In this document: positions 9,033 through 48,612 of the stretch, piece by piece
Numbering within the stretch: position 1 is the stretch's first letter
How the letters are laid out: each line of letters begins with the position of its first letter
DNA from: Jeotgalicoccus saudimassiliensis
GTDB taxonomy: Bacteria; Bacillota; Bacilli; Staphylococcales; Salinicoccaceae
Length of the DNA: 64,000 nucleotides
Reading direction: 5' to 3'
NCBI RefSeq assembly: GCF_000756715.1
Contig: NZ_CCSE01000001.1
Location: forward strand, 1,952,001-2,016,000
The notes under the pieces: model-generated
Seen by the model: only the letters and a program-made list of their open reading frames with translations
Databases searched by the model: none
What the model was told of the DNA's origin: nothing
Program-made: the position numbers and the translations under genes

Positions 9033-10134
<1,102 letters not shown>

Positions 10135-42490: not shown

Positions 42491-42565
42491 GGCCCGTTGG
42501 TCAAGCGGTTAAGACACCGCCCTTTCACGGCGGTAACACGGGTTCGAGTCCCGTACGGGTCACCA
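42491..42565 (+). tRNA. tRNA-Glu (anticodon TTC)
   Basis: 75 nt with encoded CCA. Acceptor GGCCCGT / ACGGGTC, anticodon stem CCGCC / GGCGG with loop CTTTCAC, T-loop GGTTCGAGTCC. Only promoters, no terminator, separate it from the next tRNA. Confidence 0.97.
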
Positions 42566-42589
42566 TTTAAAATTTGTTGAAATAAAGTG

Positions 42590-42618
42590 TTGACTTCATG
42601 AAAACACTGAAGTATAAT
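42590..42618 (+). promoter_or_regulatory. Promoter 2 of the tRNA/rrn locus
   Basis: TTGACT (42590-42595), 17-base spacer, TATAAT (42613-42618). Near-consensus. Confidence 0.85.
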
Positions 42619-42678
42619 TTAAAATCTAACCAGTTGAGAGAACAACTCGGCAGGTAAAAAAATAAATAAAAAAAACAG

Positions 42679-42707
42679 TTGACATTAACTGATGAACACG
42701 ATATACT
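42679..42707 (+). promoter_or_regulatory. Promoter 3 of the tRNA/rrn locus
   Basis: TTGACA (42679-42684), 17-base spacer, TATACT (42702-42707). Near-consensus, about 54 bases before tRNA-Leu. Confidence 0.85.
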
Positions 42708-42760
42708 AGTTCTTGTCGCTAAAAAGATATTAAAAAAAGTTATTACATATAATAAGCTTT

Positions 42761-42849
<89 letters not shown>

Positions 42850-42878
42850 TTGAAAACTTATTATAACACATATACCAT

Positions 42879-42952
42879 GCGGGTATAGTTAAATGGTATA
42901 ACCTCAGCCTTCCAAGCTGATGTTGTCGGTTCGATCCCGTCTACCCGCTCCA
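42879..42952 (+). tRNA. tRNA-Gly (anticodon TCC)
   Basis: 74 nt with encoded CCA. Acceptor GCGGGTA / TACCCGC, anticodon stem TCAGC / GCTGA with loop CTTCCAA, T-loop GGTTCGATCCC. Confidence 0.96.
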
Positions 42953-44400: not shown

Positions 44401-44834
44401 TCAGAGAAATGCAGATTGAGGATTTAAATGATGTGTACGCTATAGAAGTCGAAGCATTTAAAAACTCAACATGGACGATGGAAGCTTATACGAGAGAACT
44501 TGTAATGAATAAATTTGCCCACTACTTCGTTATGGAGCTGGACGGTGAAATTATCGGTTATACCGGCATATGGCTTGTAGTGGACCAGTGTCAGATCACG
44601 ACGGTGGCACTCGCTAAGAAAATGCGCGGCAAAGGTTACAGTCATGTTCTGATCGAACATATAAAGGAATTTGTTAAACCGCAGGCGGATGTAGTCTCTC
44701 TTGAAGTGAGAGTGGATAATACACCGGCAATGAAACTGTATGAACGAAACGGTTTTAAATACGGCGGCGTACGTAAGAATTATTATGGAGAAGGGCTTGA
44801 TGCACACGTGATGTGGGTGAATCTTAATGAGTAA
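44382..44834 (+). CDS. rimI: Ribosomal-protein-alanine N-acetyltransferase RimI
   Basis: GNAT acetyltransferase (S18 N-terminus in E. coli). TTG start with GGAGG seven bases upstream; 150 residues. Acetyl-CoA motif [19 protein letters not shown] and C-terminal [15 protein letters not shown]. Lies between tsaB and tsaD as in many Firmicutes. Confidence 0.92.
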
Positions 44835-45849
44835 AGATATTAAAATACTCGCAATAGAAACGAGCTGCGACGAGACTGCAGCGAGTGTTATACAAAATGG
44901 TCATGAAATATTGTCGAATGTCGTAGTGAGCCAGATCGAAAGCCATAAAAGATTTGGCGGTGTAGTGCCGGAAGTGGCTTCCCGCCATCACGTTGAGGCA
45001 ATTACACACGTCATAGATCAGGCGCTGAAAGAAGCTGAGCTTGAACCTGCTGATTTAACAGCAGTGGCTGTCACTGAAGGACCGGGGCTCATAGGTGCGC
45101 TTTTAATCGGTATTAATGCAGCGAAAACATTTGCATTTGTCCATGATCTGCCGCTTATTCCCGTACATCATATAGCGGGGCATATATATGCGGCACAGCT
45201 TGAGAAACCGCTCGTATTCCCATTGGTTTCACTTGTCGTATCAGGCGGTCATACAGAGCTTATATACATGAAAGATCATATGTCTTTTGAGATTATCGGA
45301 GAAACGAGAGACGACGCAGTCGGTGAAGCATTTGATAAGGTCGCAAGGGTAATTGAACTGCCTTATCCCGGTGGTCCGCATATCGACAAGCTTGCACAGG
45401 CGGGTGAAGACACATTTGACTTCCCGAGAGGTTTAATGAAGGAAGATACATTTGATTTCAGCTTCAGCGGGTTAAAGTCGGCAGTCATCAACAAGCTGCA
45501 CAACTATAGTCAAAAGGGTATTGAAATTAATAAAAGCGACGTTGCAGCGAGCTTCCAGGCAAGCGTTACAGACGTTCTGACGGCGAAAACCTTCGCCGCA
45601 TTAAAAGAGTACGATGTTAAGAATCTGATTATAGCAGGCGGTGTTGCAGGCAACAGCGAGCTGCGCCGCCGATTCACAGCAATGTGTGAAGAACATAAAG
45701 TTAATCTGCAAATCCCAGAGCTGAAATTCTGTACAGACAATGCTGCGATGATCGGAGCTGCAGCATATCATTTATATGAGAAAAAACATCTGGCAGATTT
45801 AAGACTTAACGGCAGGAATTTTATCGATATAGAGGAATATGCATTTTAA
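44827..45849 (+). CDS. tsaD: tRNA N6-adenosine threonylcarbamoyltransferase TsaD
   Basis: Transfers the threonylcarbamoyl group to A37 of ANN-decoding tRNAs. 340 residues. N-terminal [14 protein letters not shown], metal-binding HHIAGH ([13 protein letters not shown]), [10 protein letters not shown], and C-terminal [15 protein letters not shown]. Formerly gcp/ydiE. Confidence 0.97.
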
Positions 45850-45944: not shown

Positions 45945-46382
45945 GTGATTAAAGCTGTACAGTACTTTAACTATTCGAATGCACTCGAGGCGCTGGAATT
46001 TTACGAGAAGAATTTTGATGCGGTTATTAACACGAAGATAATGGCATCTGATCCGAAGTTTGCCGCGGGTCTGGATGAGATGGGAATGTCGGCAGAAGAT
46101 GCAGAAACATTTGTGATGAATGCAGAATTCGAAGTGCTCGGTCAGAGGTTTATGGCGAGTTCCACGTGGCAGCATAAGGATATTGATAACTCCGGAGCAA
46201 TCATTACATTTGTCTTTGATTCAAATAATGAAGAGGAACTTAATGCAGTGACAAATCTTTATAACAAAGCAGTTGAAGCAGGCTGTCGGGTAGATATGAA
46301 ACTTGGTCCGACGGAATGGACCCGCTATTTCGCGAGTTTTAAAGATCCGTATAGTATTAACTGGATGATCAGCGGGGAATAA
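45945..46382 (+). CDS. VOC-family (PhnB-like) protein
   Basis: Glyoxalase/bleomycin-resistance fold protein of the PhnB/3-demethylubiquinone group. 145 residues from GTG with AAAGGAGTG upstream. FNYSNALEALEFYEKNF and KDPYSINWMIS are typical of these proteins; the metal-binding pattern is not complete by eye, so an enzymatic role cannot be given. Own terminator follows. Confidence 0.8.
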   Translation: MIKAVQYFNYSNALEALEFYEKNFDAVINTKIMASDPKFAAGLDEMGMSAEDAETFVMNAEFEVLGQRFMASSTWQHKDIDNSGAIITFVFDSNNEEELNAVTNLYNKAVEAGCRVDMKLGPTEWTRYFASFKDPYSINWMISGE

Positions 46383-46387
46383 TATAC

Positions 46388-46425
46388 AAACCGGGACGTC
46401 TCATGTGAGGATCCCGGTTTATTTA
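46388..46425 (+). terminator. Terminator of the VOC gene
   Basis: AAACCGGGA / TCCCGGTTT outer stem with inner CTCA / TGAG pairing and tail ATTTATTAT. Confidence 0.82.
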
Positions 46426-46497
46426 TTATACCGAACACGTATTCACTTAATAATACGTTTGATGAGCTCCCGGTTCTGTCAATACGGAACGTACGTT

Positions 46498-46636
46498 TTG
46501 TCCACAAATTGTGGACAGTTTGTGGGTAACTTATGATAAGTTGTGTATTAATCTGTGGATAAGTATGTGTATAACTGTAAAATCTGTGGATAAATTAAAA
46601 AGAATGCGGTCATAACCGCATTCCTGTTGTGGATAA
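46498..46636. promoter_or_regulatory. DnaA-box cluster
   Basis: Eight 9-mers related to TTATCCACA in 139 bases between convergent genes. Perfect inverse copies TGTGGATAA at 46554, 46585 and 46628; TGTGTATAA at 46566; TGTGGGTAA at 46521; TTGTCCACA at 46498; weaker TGTGGACAG at 46510 and TGTGTATTA at 46542. The first two form the inverted repeat TGTCCACAA-A-TTGTGGACA. No dnaA or dnaN is near. Confidence 0.85.
46596..46623 (-). terminator. Terminator of the ABC-F gene
   Basis: Minus strand: GAATGCGGT / ACCGCATTC stem with loop TATG followed by TTTTTAATTT. It lies inside the DnaA-box cluster. Confidence 0.85.
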
Positions 46637-46695
46637 CTTTTTGTTGTAAATGTAATCCTTTGAGGGGAACACACAGTAAAATTTATGTAAAAGTC

Positions 46696-48612
46696 TTAAA
46701 GATCGGCAAGTAATTCTTCTGCTTCTTCCCATTCGGTCATCAGTACTTCAAGTTTCTCATTAATTTCTTTAAGTCTGTTATCGAGCTCCTGAGCTTTCTC
46801 GTAGTCATTAAAGACTTCCGGAGCCACCAGCTTATCTTCAATTGCTGACAGTTCAATCTCCAGCTCCTGAATTTCCTGTTCGAGCTTTTCGCTCTGCTTT
46901 TTAACGCGCTTTAATTCATTGCGGCGCTGTTTCTGGGCTTCGTAGTCCGAGATGTTTTCTTTCTTCTCATCGATGCGCTCAACAGGTGCTTCCATAAACT
47001 CTGCCTCTTTCTTCTTGTGCTGGAAGTAGCTGTAGTCACCGTCGACCATCATAACTTTATGCGGTTCGATTTCCATGACCCGGCTTGCAATTTTATCGAT
47101 GAAATAACGGTCGTGTGATACGACGATAATCGTGCCGGGGAAATTCTCAAGTGCTGTTTCCAATACTTCTTTACTGTCGATATCCAGGTGGTTGGTCGGC
47201 TCATCGAGAATCAGCAGGTTATTTTCTTCAAGCATCAGTTTAGCGAGCTGTATTCTCGCTTTTTCTCCTCCGCTTAATGAGTTGACCTGTTTCAGCACTT
47301 CATCCTGTGTGAATAAGAAGCGGCCGAGAATTTTTCTGACGTCGCTTTCTTTCATCTGCGGATATTCTTTCCACAGTTCTTCAAGTACGTTGTTTTGGGA
47401 AGTGAATTCCGCCTGTTTCTGGTCGTAATAGCCGATTGTTACGTTCGTCCCGTACTGAATGTTTCCGTCGAGTTCCGGAATGATTTTAGCGATTGTTTTG
47501 GCCAGTGTGGATTTCCCGATACCGTTCGGACCAAGTATTGCGAGACGGTCTCCTTTGTCCACATTAAACGACAGGCCGCTTCGGAGGACGGTGTCATCGT
47601 ATCCGATGGCAAGGTCTTTTAATCTCAGTACATCGTTGCCGCTTTCACGTTTTATCGTGAACTGAAAGTCCGCGCTCGAACGGTCGATGAAAGGTTTATC
47701 CATGCGGTCCATCATTTCGAGTTTCTTACGGCGGTCTTTCGCCATACCGGAAGTCGATGCACGTGTAATGTTTTTCTCTATAAACGTCTCGAGTCTCTTA
47801 ACTTCACTCTGTTCACGCTCGTACTGCTTCATTCTTAATCGGTGTGTTTTCTCTTTTTCTTTCACGTAGTTTGTGTAGTTCGTATGGTAAAGTGTGCCCC
47901 GGTGCAGTTCGATCTCATAAATCTTATCGACTGTGCGGTCGAGGAAGTAACGGTCGTGACTAATAATAACCACTGCACCGTCATAACTTTTCAAATACTG
48001 CTCAAGCCATTCAACAGTCGCCATGTCCAGGTGGTTGGTCGGCTCATCGAGAAGAAGCAGGTCCGGTTTTGTTAACAGCATCTTACCGAGTGCAAGGCGC
48101 GTTTTCTGACCGCCTGAAAATTCTTCGACCCTGCGGTCGAGGTCAGCTTCTGTAAACTGCAGACCGGTCAGAACACTTTTAATCTGAGCATCGATTGTAT
48201 AGCCGTCTTTATGTTCAAATTCGAGCTGAATGGTTTCATAGCGTTTCAGTTTTTCATCATAATCTGCATGTGTATGTTCGTGCTCGCTGAGCCATGCGGC
48301 AATTTCCGCCATATCATCGTTCATTTTAAGTATATGTGAGAACGGCTTCTGCATTTCATCCCTGACAGTTTCATCGGACTCCAGTGTCATCTGCTGTGCA
48401 AGATAACCGAGAGAGACGTGTTTCGGCATGCTGATCGTACCGCTGTCATAAGTGAGTTCATCAGCCATAACTTTCATTAATGTACTTTTTCCGGCACCGT
48501 TTTTTCCGACGATACCGAGAGTTTCCCCCGATTTTACTTCGAGATCCAGGTTTTCAAATATAGTGTTCGTTCCGTATGCCTTCGAGACATTTCCCAATTG
48601 TAAAAGAATCAT
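46696..48612 (-). CDS. ABC-F family ATPase (YdiF/Uup-like)
   Basis: Ribosome-associated ATPase without membrane domains. 638 residues: two ABC domains with Walker A GKNGAGKST and GPNGIGKST, signatures SGGQKTRLALG and SGGEKARIQLA, Walker B LLLLDEPTNHLD and LLILDEPTNHLD; linker (P-site tRNA interaction motif) region near 240-310; C-terminal coiled coil from about 555. Position before rex matches B. subtilis ydiF. Nothing specifically suggests an antibiotic-resistance member. Confidence 0.93.
   Translation of the reverse strand: MILLQLGNVSKAYGTNTIFENLDLEVKSGETLGIVGKNGAGKSTLMKVMADELTYDSGTISMPKHVSLGYLAQQMTLESDETVRDEMQKPFSHILKMNDDMAEIAAWLSEHEHTHADYDEKLKRYETIQLEFEHKDGYTIDAQIKSVLTGLQFTEADLDRRVEEFSGGQKTRLALGKMLLTKPDLLLLDEPTNHLDMATVEWLEQYLKSYDGAVVIISHDRYFLDRTVDKIYEIELHRGTLYHTNYTNYVKEKEKTHRLRMKQYEREQSEVKRLETFIEKNITRASTSGMAKDRRKKLEMMDRMDKPFIDRSSADFQFTIKRESGNDVLRLKDLAIGYDDTVLRSGLSFNVDKGDRLAILGPNGIGKSTLAKTIAKIIPELDGNIQYGTNVTIGYYDQKQAEFTSQNNVLEELWKEYPQMKESDVRKILGRFLFTQDEVLKQVNSLSGGEKARIQLAKLMLEENNLLILDEPTNHLDIDSKEVLETALENFPGTIIVVSHDRYFIDKIASRVMEIEPHKVMMVDGDYSYFQHKKKEAEFMEAPVERIDEKKENISDYEAQKQRRNELKRVKKQSEKLEQEIQELEIELSAIEDKLVAPEVFNDYEKAQELDNRLKEINEKLEVLMTEWEEAEELLADL

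Follow-up and report, generated by a model that had tools for sequence, protein, structure and literature searches.

The window analysed here is a 64,000-nucleotide stretch covering positions 1952001–2016000 of a complete one-contig Jeotgalicoccus genome of 2,191,063 bases (2.19 Mb). Between the 3′ ends of tsaD and a converging ABC-F gene it harbours a cluster of eight DnaA-box-like sites, and the features of the locus, numbered by window position, are as follows.

44827–45849, plus strand: tsaD (gcp), t6A synthesis
45945–46382, plus strand: glyoxalase/VOC-fold gene, between tsaD and the cluster
46388–46420, plus strand: terminator-like hairpin of the upstream plus-strand gene (z −2.8)
46477–46497, minus strand: partner motif AACGTACGTTCCGTATTGACA, abutting the facing box on its tsaD side; the only exact match to the pattern in the genome
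46498–46636, no strand assigned: DnaA-box cluster, eight sites with at most two mismatches to TTATCCACA, the subject of the density tests
46498–46529, minus strand: terminal triplet of boxes 46521–46529 (minus), 46510–46518 (minus) and the facing 46498–46506 (plus), at offsets of 11 and 12
46498–46506, plus strand: facing DnaA box of the terminal triplet, one mismatch
46510–46518, minus strand: middle DnaA box of the terminal triplet, two mismatches
46521–46529, minus strand: DnaA box of the terminal triplet, one mismatch
46542–46550, minus strand: weak DnaA box TAATACACA, two mismatches
46554–46562, minus strand: perfect DnaA box, 31 bp from the box at 46585
46566–46574, minus strand: DnaA box TTATACACA, one mismatch
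46585–46593, minus strand: perfect DnaA box, 43 bp from the box at 46628
46600–46625, minus strand: terminator-like hairpin and T-run of the ABC-F gene, between the first two boxes (z −5.6)
46628–46636, minus strand: perfect DnaA box, between the ABC-F terminator hairpin and the ABC-F gene
46696–48612, minus strand: ABC-F ATPase, convergent, positional equivalent of YdiF

Scanning the whole of 46498–46636 for 9-mers within two mismatches of TTATCCACA returned exactly eight, of which three are perfect, three carry one mismatch and two carry two; seven lie on the minus strand, and the box nearest tsaD (46498, plus) faces the others. An earlier note, made from the sequence alone, had described eight such sites, three of them perfect, between convergent genes and away from oriC, with an inverted repeat inside the cluster. 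Our recount gave the same figures, and the repeat, TGTCCACAAATTGTGGACA, was located at 46499–46517. The interval singled out in that note is thus a real box cluster, although the recurring geometry of its boxes (see below) had been missed and the partner motif lies just outside it. The flanking genes do converge, and the presence of a terminator-like hairpin on either side agrees with a site that is not meant for promoter control, a role that the note had called unlikely. The oriC of this genome is at 1606690–1608389, with box clusters on both sides of dnaA and with dnaN and rnpA adjoining dnaA (~1.607–1.608 Mb). The cluster does not belong to it, both dnaA and dnaN being ~390 kb away (17.8% of the chromosome).

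The hairpin of the ABC-F gene sits inside the cluster, and we considered whether this is a general rule. A scan that takes the best single hairpin per locus found it within the span of the boxes at 13 of 76 loci, a count that leaves generality unsupported and that is too low, the scan having chosen the outer hairpin in the window although 46600–46625 sits within the boxes. Positions 46000–47000 of the window gave no Rfam match, and the reading as an RNA element was dropped. The TsaD encoded here and that of Jeotgalicoccus coquinae, a genus placed in Staphylococcaceae by the NCBI taxonomy, share 95% identity. Gene content between tsaD and the cluster varies: the VOC gene occupies this place in the window (45945–46382), and several other Jeotgalicoccus stretches (among L001–L007) have there a second, distant ABC-F gene (~30% identity, plus strand).

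Near matches to a DnaA box are commoner in AT-rich intergenic DNA, and the cluster might on this ground be dismissed as a pile-up of T-, A- and C-rich words produced by chance and base composition. Sites with at most two mismatches average 0.56 per 139-bp tile over 460 tiles of the window, against eight in the cluster; the top tile counts are 5 and 4, then 3, on a grid that also covers the cluster itself. The 64-kb window as a whole holds 38 sites with at most one mismatch, compared to 17.8 (sd 4.5, largest 31) in 100 shuffles. Across the genome there are 44 perfect copies of TTATCCACA, and 106 matches to TTATNCACA against 63 for the same pattern read backwards. When the 106 sites were placed at random, four within 100 bp arose in none of 20,000 trials; random placement of the 44 perfect sites, repeated 20,000 times, put three of them within 100 bp on 4 occasions. 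In the 313-bp intergenic stretch, four matches to TTATNCACA compare with a mean of 0.04 and a maximum of 2 in 1000 dinucleotide shuffles, and seven sites with at most one mismatch with a mean of 0.81 and a maximum of 4. Scoring the 9-mers against the genome background, a check proposed in the earlier note, puts box density beyond what chance gives. Among the 100 of 106 TTATNCACA sites listed, oriC alone is denser.

Our survey of related genomes bears on the same point. We counted as a cluster at least four boxes with at most one mismatch to TTATNCACA in 200 bp. TsaD was found in all 150 genomes of the order, and the 3′ side of tsaD was taken from 80 of these. A cluster lies beside tsaD and/or ABC-F in 62 of the 80 order-level stretches, distributed as 24/32 in the family of Jeotgalicoccus (f1), 37/41 in f3, 1/1 in f2 and 0/6 in f4. 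Among the 12 misses in f1 and f3, 11 have no convergent ABC-F gene in the stretch taken, and for three of these 11 (L023, L026 and L027) longer loci of the same contigs (L001, L004 and L005) do carry the cluster. A real absence was met in L086 (genome G038, f3), where tsaD and ABC-F are ~200 bp apart with no DnaA-box cluster between them; this is a natural loss. Where inserted genes widen the gap between tsaD and ABC-F to ~1.4–3.6 kb, the cluster is usually found near the ABC-F 3′ end; in L064 it is on the tsaD side.

In the wider class, ABC-F relatives are present in 126 of 151 genomes. We took the ABC-F 3′ side from 80 genomes and added the tsaD side for 30 in which ABC-F is not beside tsaD in the stretch. 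A cluster lies beside tsaD or ABC-F in 43 of these 80 genomes of other Bacilli, from 23 of 32 families, a count that includes two weak positives, G201 (five boxes, one perfect, ~1.1 kb past tsaD) and G156 (four boxes, none perfect); for genomes with the tsaD side covered the figure is 40 of 50. With the tsaD side covered in one or two genomes each, four families gave no cluster (f8 0/3, f18 0/5, f20 0/2, f28 0/3), and five more (f33, f36, f37, f38 and f41) gave none at the ABC-F 3′ side, the one side covered for them. Control stretches had no cluster in tsaD coding sequence (0/30), ABC-F coding sequence (0/80) or tiles of the window (0/102). In an outgroup of 13 tsaD loci, mostly from Clostridia MAGs, 12 have at most three boxes per 200 bp and one (L013) has five, at locus position 10020, ~4 kb past the tsaD match. 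Conservation at tsaD/ABC-F across the family, which the earlier note had asked about, is therefore present and extends well beyond the family. Dinucleotide shuffles, genome background and coding controls all speak against chance, as does the keeping of clusters at one locus across genomes. A chance origin is excluded, and we give the base-composition account a negligible probability. A literature search by title returned no report that the cluster is conserved outside B. subtilis, and its breadth, geometry and motif appear in no title met there; the breadth, the recurring geometry and the companion motif are new, and the cluster itself belongs to a known kind.

The arrangement of boxes within the clusters is also far from random. 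Using 47 clusters, with each genus represented by one or a few, we found tandem spacings of 12, 9, 21, 86, 42 and 63 bp over-represented relative to random placement (z from 10.4 to 6.5), all but 9 and 12 being close to whole helical turns. A spacing of 11 taken alone is weak in this genus-level set, being present in 15 clusters when random placement reaches as many as 17 (z 2.9). Two modules recur: a 43-31 module occurs in 15 of the 47 clusters against 0.7 expected, and a 43-9-22 module in 8 against 0.01 expected. A further element is the terminal triplet, defined as a box, a tandem box at +11 and a facing box at +12 (or 11). Of 76 clusters, 32 have it in full form, with at most one mismatch per box, where 0.2 would be expected; the window, whose middle box has two mismatches, falls outside these 32. 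The triplet and the modules were chosen after viewing the data and the genomes are related, so these figures show strength and are not formal probabilities. The linkers between boxes are 13–41% identical in selected between-family pairs, and in selected pairs the offsets upstream of the triplet that are common to families number 18 against 7.1 expected, a weaker signal than the triplet itself.

Allowing two mismatches, the triplet pattern was found in 52 of 151 class genomes, and its backwards control in 0 of 151. Thirty loci of triplet matches comprise 8 with dnaA and/or rnpA, 10 with tsaD and ABC-F, and 12 with neither. Eleven of these 12 were translated and in all eleven the triplet is just upstream of a Sua5/TsaC-like frame, an assignment confirmed by Pfam in 6 of 6 frames tested. 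These loci come from f13, f29 and other families (L257, L259–L266, L285 and L286), and with tsaD and TsaC two t6A-synthesis genes are found beside DnaA clusters. In the Jeotgalicoccus genome the triplet recurs exactly upstream of dnaA and, with two mismatches, at another cluster. This cluster, the third of the genome among the TTATNCACA sites listed, is at 1574885–1575094 (L103:4885–5094), just upstream of rlmH and ~32 kb from oriC. It matches the DnaA-binding region at B. subtilis yydA, which we take to be the equivalent of rlmH, and the triplet upstream of Sua5/TsaC genes in other families corresponds to the B. subtilis ywlC region, ywlC being of that gene family; both are loci different from the tsaD/ABC-F cluster.

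Abutting the facing box is a second conserved element, a motif of about 21 bp with the approximate consensus GTACRNAYGTTCnnTnTTGACA. Its core, AC-N2-[AG][CT]GTTC, is present at 59 of 80 junctions examined, the core letters being invariant by search design and the flanking A, GT and TnTTGACA not so constrained. In 54 of the 59 it adjoins a facing box that has two mismatches or fewer. The core occurs in loci of f1, f3, f6 and f40, the remaining 21 of the 80 junctions lack it (including all three of f16), and in some genera the motif has no TTGACA tail. We ran a 30-bp degenerate pattern, combining facing box and motif, on 299 class genomes with up to three mismatches, and 40 genomes matched. Exact matches came one per genome from 33 genomes (15 of f6, 18 of f3), each at the tsaD/ABC-F locus: 24 have ABC-F within 1.5 kb in the locus taken, and the coordinates of the other 9 put them no more than 3 kb from tsaD or ABC-F. 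Seven genomes matched inexactly, three at the locus (G048, G052, G319) and four elsewhere (G276, G169, G382, G316), and in G003, G006 and G046 there is a second match with three mismatches besides. Relative to f1 the pattern has one base too many, and it matched none of the four f1 genomes in the search; a shorter pattern that fits f1 gave, in the Jeotgalicoccus genome, one exact match, at the cluster, and 14 with one or two mismatches. In this genome neither the rlmH cluster nor the dnaA upstream region contains the core, and matches to the motif near oriC or the rlmH cluster are at chance level. In Jeotgalicoccus, as in several related families, the motif is probably bound by a second factor, a partner protein whose existence we infer from the motif.

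Two identities for the motif were considered and rejected. As a sigma-A promoter it would require a −10 element, and none is enriched over shuffles 15–19 bp after TTGACA; with up to two mismatches, a −10 follows the motif's TTGAC in 15 of 45 loci against ~21 expected. In favour of a LexA operator, its half GTTC together with the four preceding bases is similar to the Gram-positive LexA (SOS) consensus, taken here as GAAC-N4-GTTC. The opposite half, over 46 loci, is GTAC in 27, AAAC in 18, AAAA in 1 and GAAC in 0. A genome-wide scan for LexA-like words with at most one mismatch returned 230 against 132 for the backwards control and is too unspecific to help. A second LexA-like word, GAACACGTATTC, is at window positions 46433–46444, 33 bp from the partner motif, and similar words were seen by eye at like distance in several f1 relatives.

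The earlier note had named a B. subtilis DnaA-box cluster near gcp-ydiF as the equivalent, and rightly so, as a DnaA-binding region of B. subtilis lies between the same genes (PMC4447404). It is placed there downstream of gcp and downstream of ydiF, contains 10 sites and belongs to a set of eight regions that bind DnaA with high affinity in vitro (PMC4447404). The same study gives a Kd of 0.15 µM for ATP-DnaA and 0.33 µM for ADP-DnaA, and a 16-fold greater recovery of DNA with ATP- than with ADP-DnaA at 55 nM. Compared by this published description, the two have the same neighbourhood, where tsaD and ABC-F genes converge with their 3′ ends, away from oriC, with eight boxes here against ten in B. 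subtilis; the Jeotgalicoccus locus, unlike that of B. subtilis, has a VOC gene between tsaD and the cluster. As a dense box cluster outside oriC that lies between the points where gcp/tsaD and ydiF/ABC-F end, it corresponds in position to the B. subtilis gcp-ydiF region, the orthology of ABC-F to YdiF being inferred from gene neighbourhood. As for function, removal of six B. subtilis DnaA-box clusters (DBCs) outside oriC is reported to cause early initiation (PMC5295017, PMC13220808), with a phenotype described in review as strong only when all six are removed together (PMC5295017). The effect of the clusters is described as depending on closeness to oriC (PMC5010248). Speaking against such a role, a 2026 review reports that 10-fold more DnaA does not bring over-initiation in B. 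subtilis (PMC13220808).

With the affinity of the B. subtilis site for ATP-DnaA and the joint restraint exerted by six such clusters, the simplest reading is that the Jeotgalicoccus cluster sequesters ATP-DnaA. DnaA very likely binds here, judging from the sequence of the boxes and from homology, and the cluster is most likely a high-affinity station that sequesters the ATP form; by analogy with B. subtilis, titration of DnaA is plausible and the cluster would restrain initiation. Taken together, we consider it probable that this is a gcp-ydiF-like chromosomal DnaA-box cluster that holds ATP-DnaA and so restrains initiation. In such a scheme DnaA would nucleate on the strong boxes, aided by the closely spaced terminal triplet, and would then fill boxes at roughly whole helical turns to give one defined nucleoprotein complex, with a second factor probably seated on the motif abutting the facing box in Jeotgalicoccus and several related families. 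The complex would retain ATP-DnaA on the part of the chromosome near the origin, and as the fork passes after each initiation the cluster would double, leaving less free ATP-DnaA and restraining re-initiation. The same location in many families, the recurring spacing and the second motif in some of them suggest an old, specific control element rather than a chance pile-up. A pure sink, however, needs only box number, yet geometry and motif are kept, and sequestration alone may not be the whole function.

One reading of this surplus is that the cluster processes DnaA in the manner of E. coli datA or DARS, where geometry and a motif-bound partner would serve ATP hydrolysis or ADP exchange and not storage alone. 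Spacing and orientation recur while the linkers diverge, and a dedicated motif abuts the facing box. The cores of E. coli DARS1 and DARS2 likewise consist of three boxes, two in tandem and one facing, with box I opposite to II and III, an order that the triplet shares with the MG1655 sequence (the middle box of the window having two mismatches). datA is likewise intergenic and oriC-proximal, with high-affinity boxes and a negative role as described in PMC5742627 and PMC5010248; its own feature is that it needs IHF and promotes DnaA-ATP hydrolysis. The 2026 review, in which datA and DARS loci are given as absent from B. subtilis, treats the existence there of regulators of ADP/ATP-DnaA interconversion as not established (PMC13220808). 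Weighing against this, the core spacing of 14 and 12 read from MG1655 differs from the 12 and 11 of the window, DARS is described as preferring ADP-DnaA (PMC5742627) whereas the B. subtilis equivalent prefers ATP-DnaA (PMC4447404), IHF, required by datA and DARS2, is stated to be absent from B. subtilis (PMC13220808), and the triplet is found upstream of dnaA too. Given the different spacing and the ATP-DnaA preference of the B. subtilis site, we do not file the cluster as a DARS, and we judge processing of this kind unlikely. A broader proposal, that the cluster is an ancient, geometry-defined DnaA control complex of Bacilli and a counterpart of datA/DARS, in which a motif-bound protein switches how DnaA is loaded or released, or its nucleotide state, in time with the cell cycle or DNA damage, we put forward tentatively, as unlikely.

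Alternatively, DnaA and the motif factor could form a local transcription or termination element that keeps antisense or read-through transcription under control where tsaD and ABC-F end. A terminator-like hairpin of ABC-F within the cluster of the window would suit this role, as would the position of the triplet next to tsaC, another t6A gene, in other families. The cluster is nonetheless kept where other genes have been inserted, the flanking genes converge, and the lack of −10 enrichment after the motif's TTGAC points the other way, making this account distinctly improbable. The sharing of the box triplet between the cluster and the dnaA upstream region might even recall a relic or accessory replication origin. 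The box clusters that flank dnaA, with dnaN and rnpA, sit elsewhere on the chromosome, and a relic would not be expected to persist in so many families, which leaves this idea very little likelihood. Sequestration of ATP-DnaA with restraint of initiation thus remains our preferred reading.

Our findings make the gcp-ydiF cluster, in B. subtilis one of several redundant sites, a feature that is likely ancestral for much of the class. A locus-specific cluster with geometry and motif also gives a concrete route to the question of ADP/ATP-DnaA balance in B. subtilis, and spacing changes at constant box number would separate titration from active DnaA processing. Elsewhere in the neighbourhood, three tRNA genes (Glu, Leu and Gly) lie upstream of tsaE at window positions 42491–42952, and many draft contigs of the relatives stop 1.6–2 kb upstream of tsaD, which suggests a repeat such as an rRNA operon at that point.
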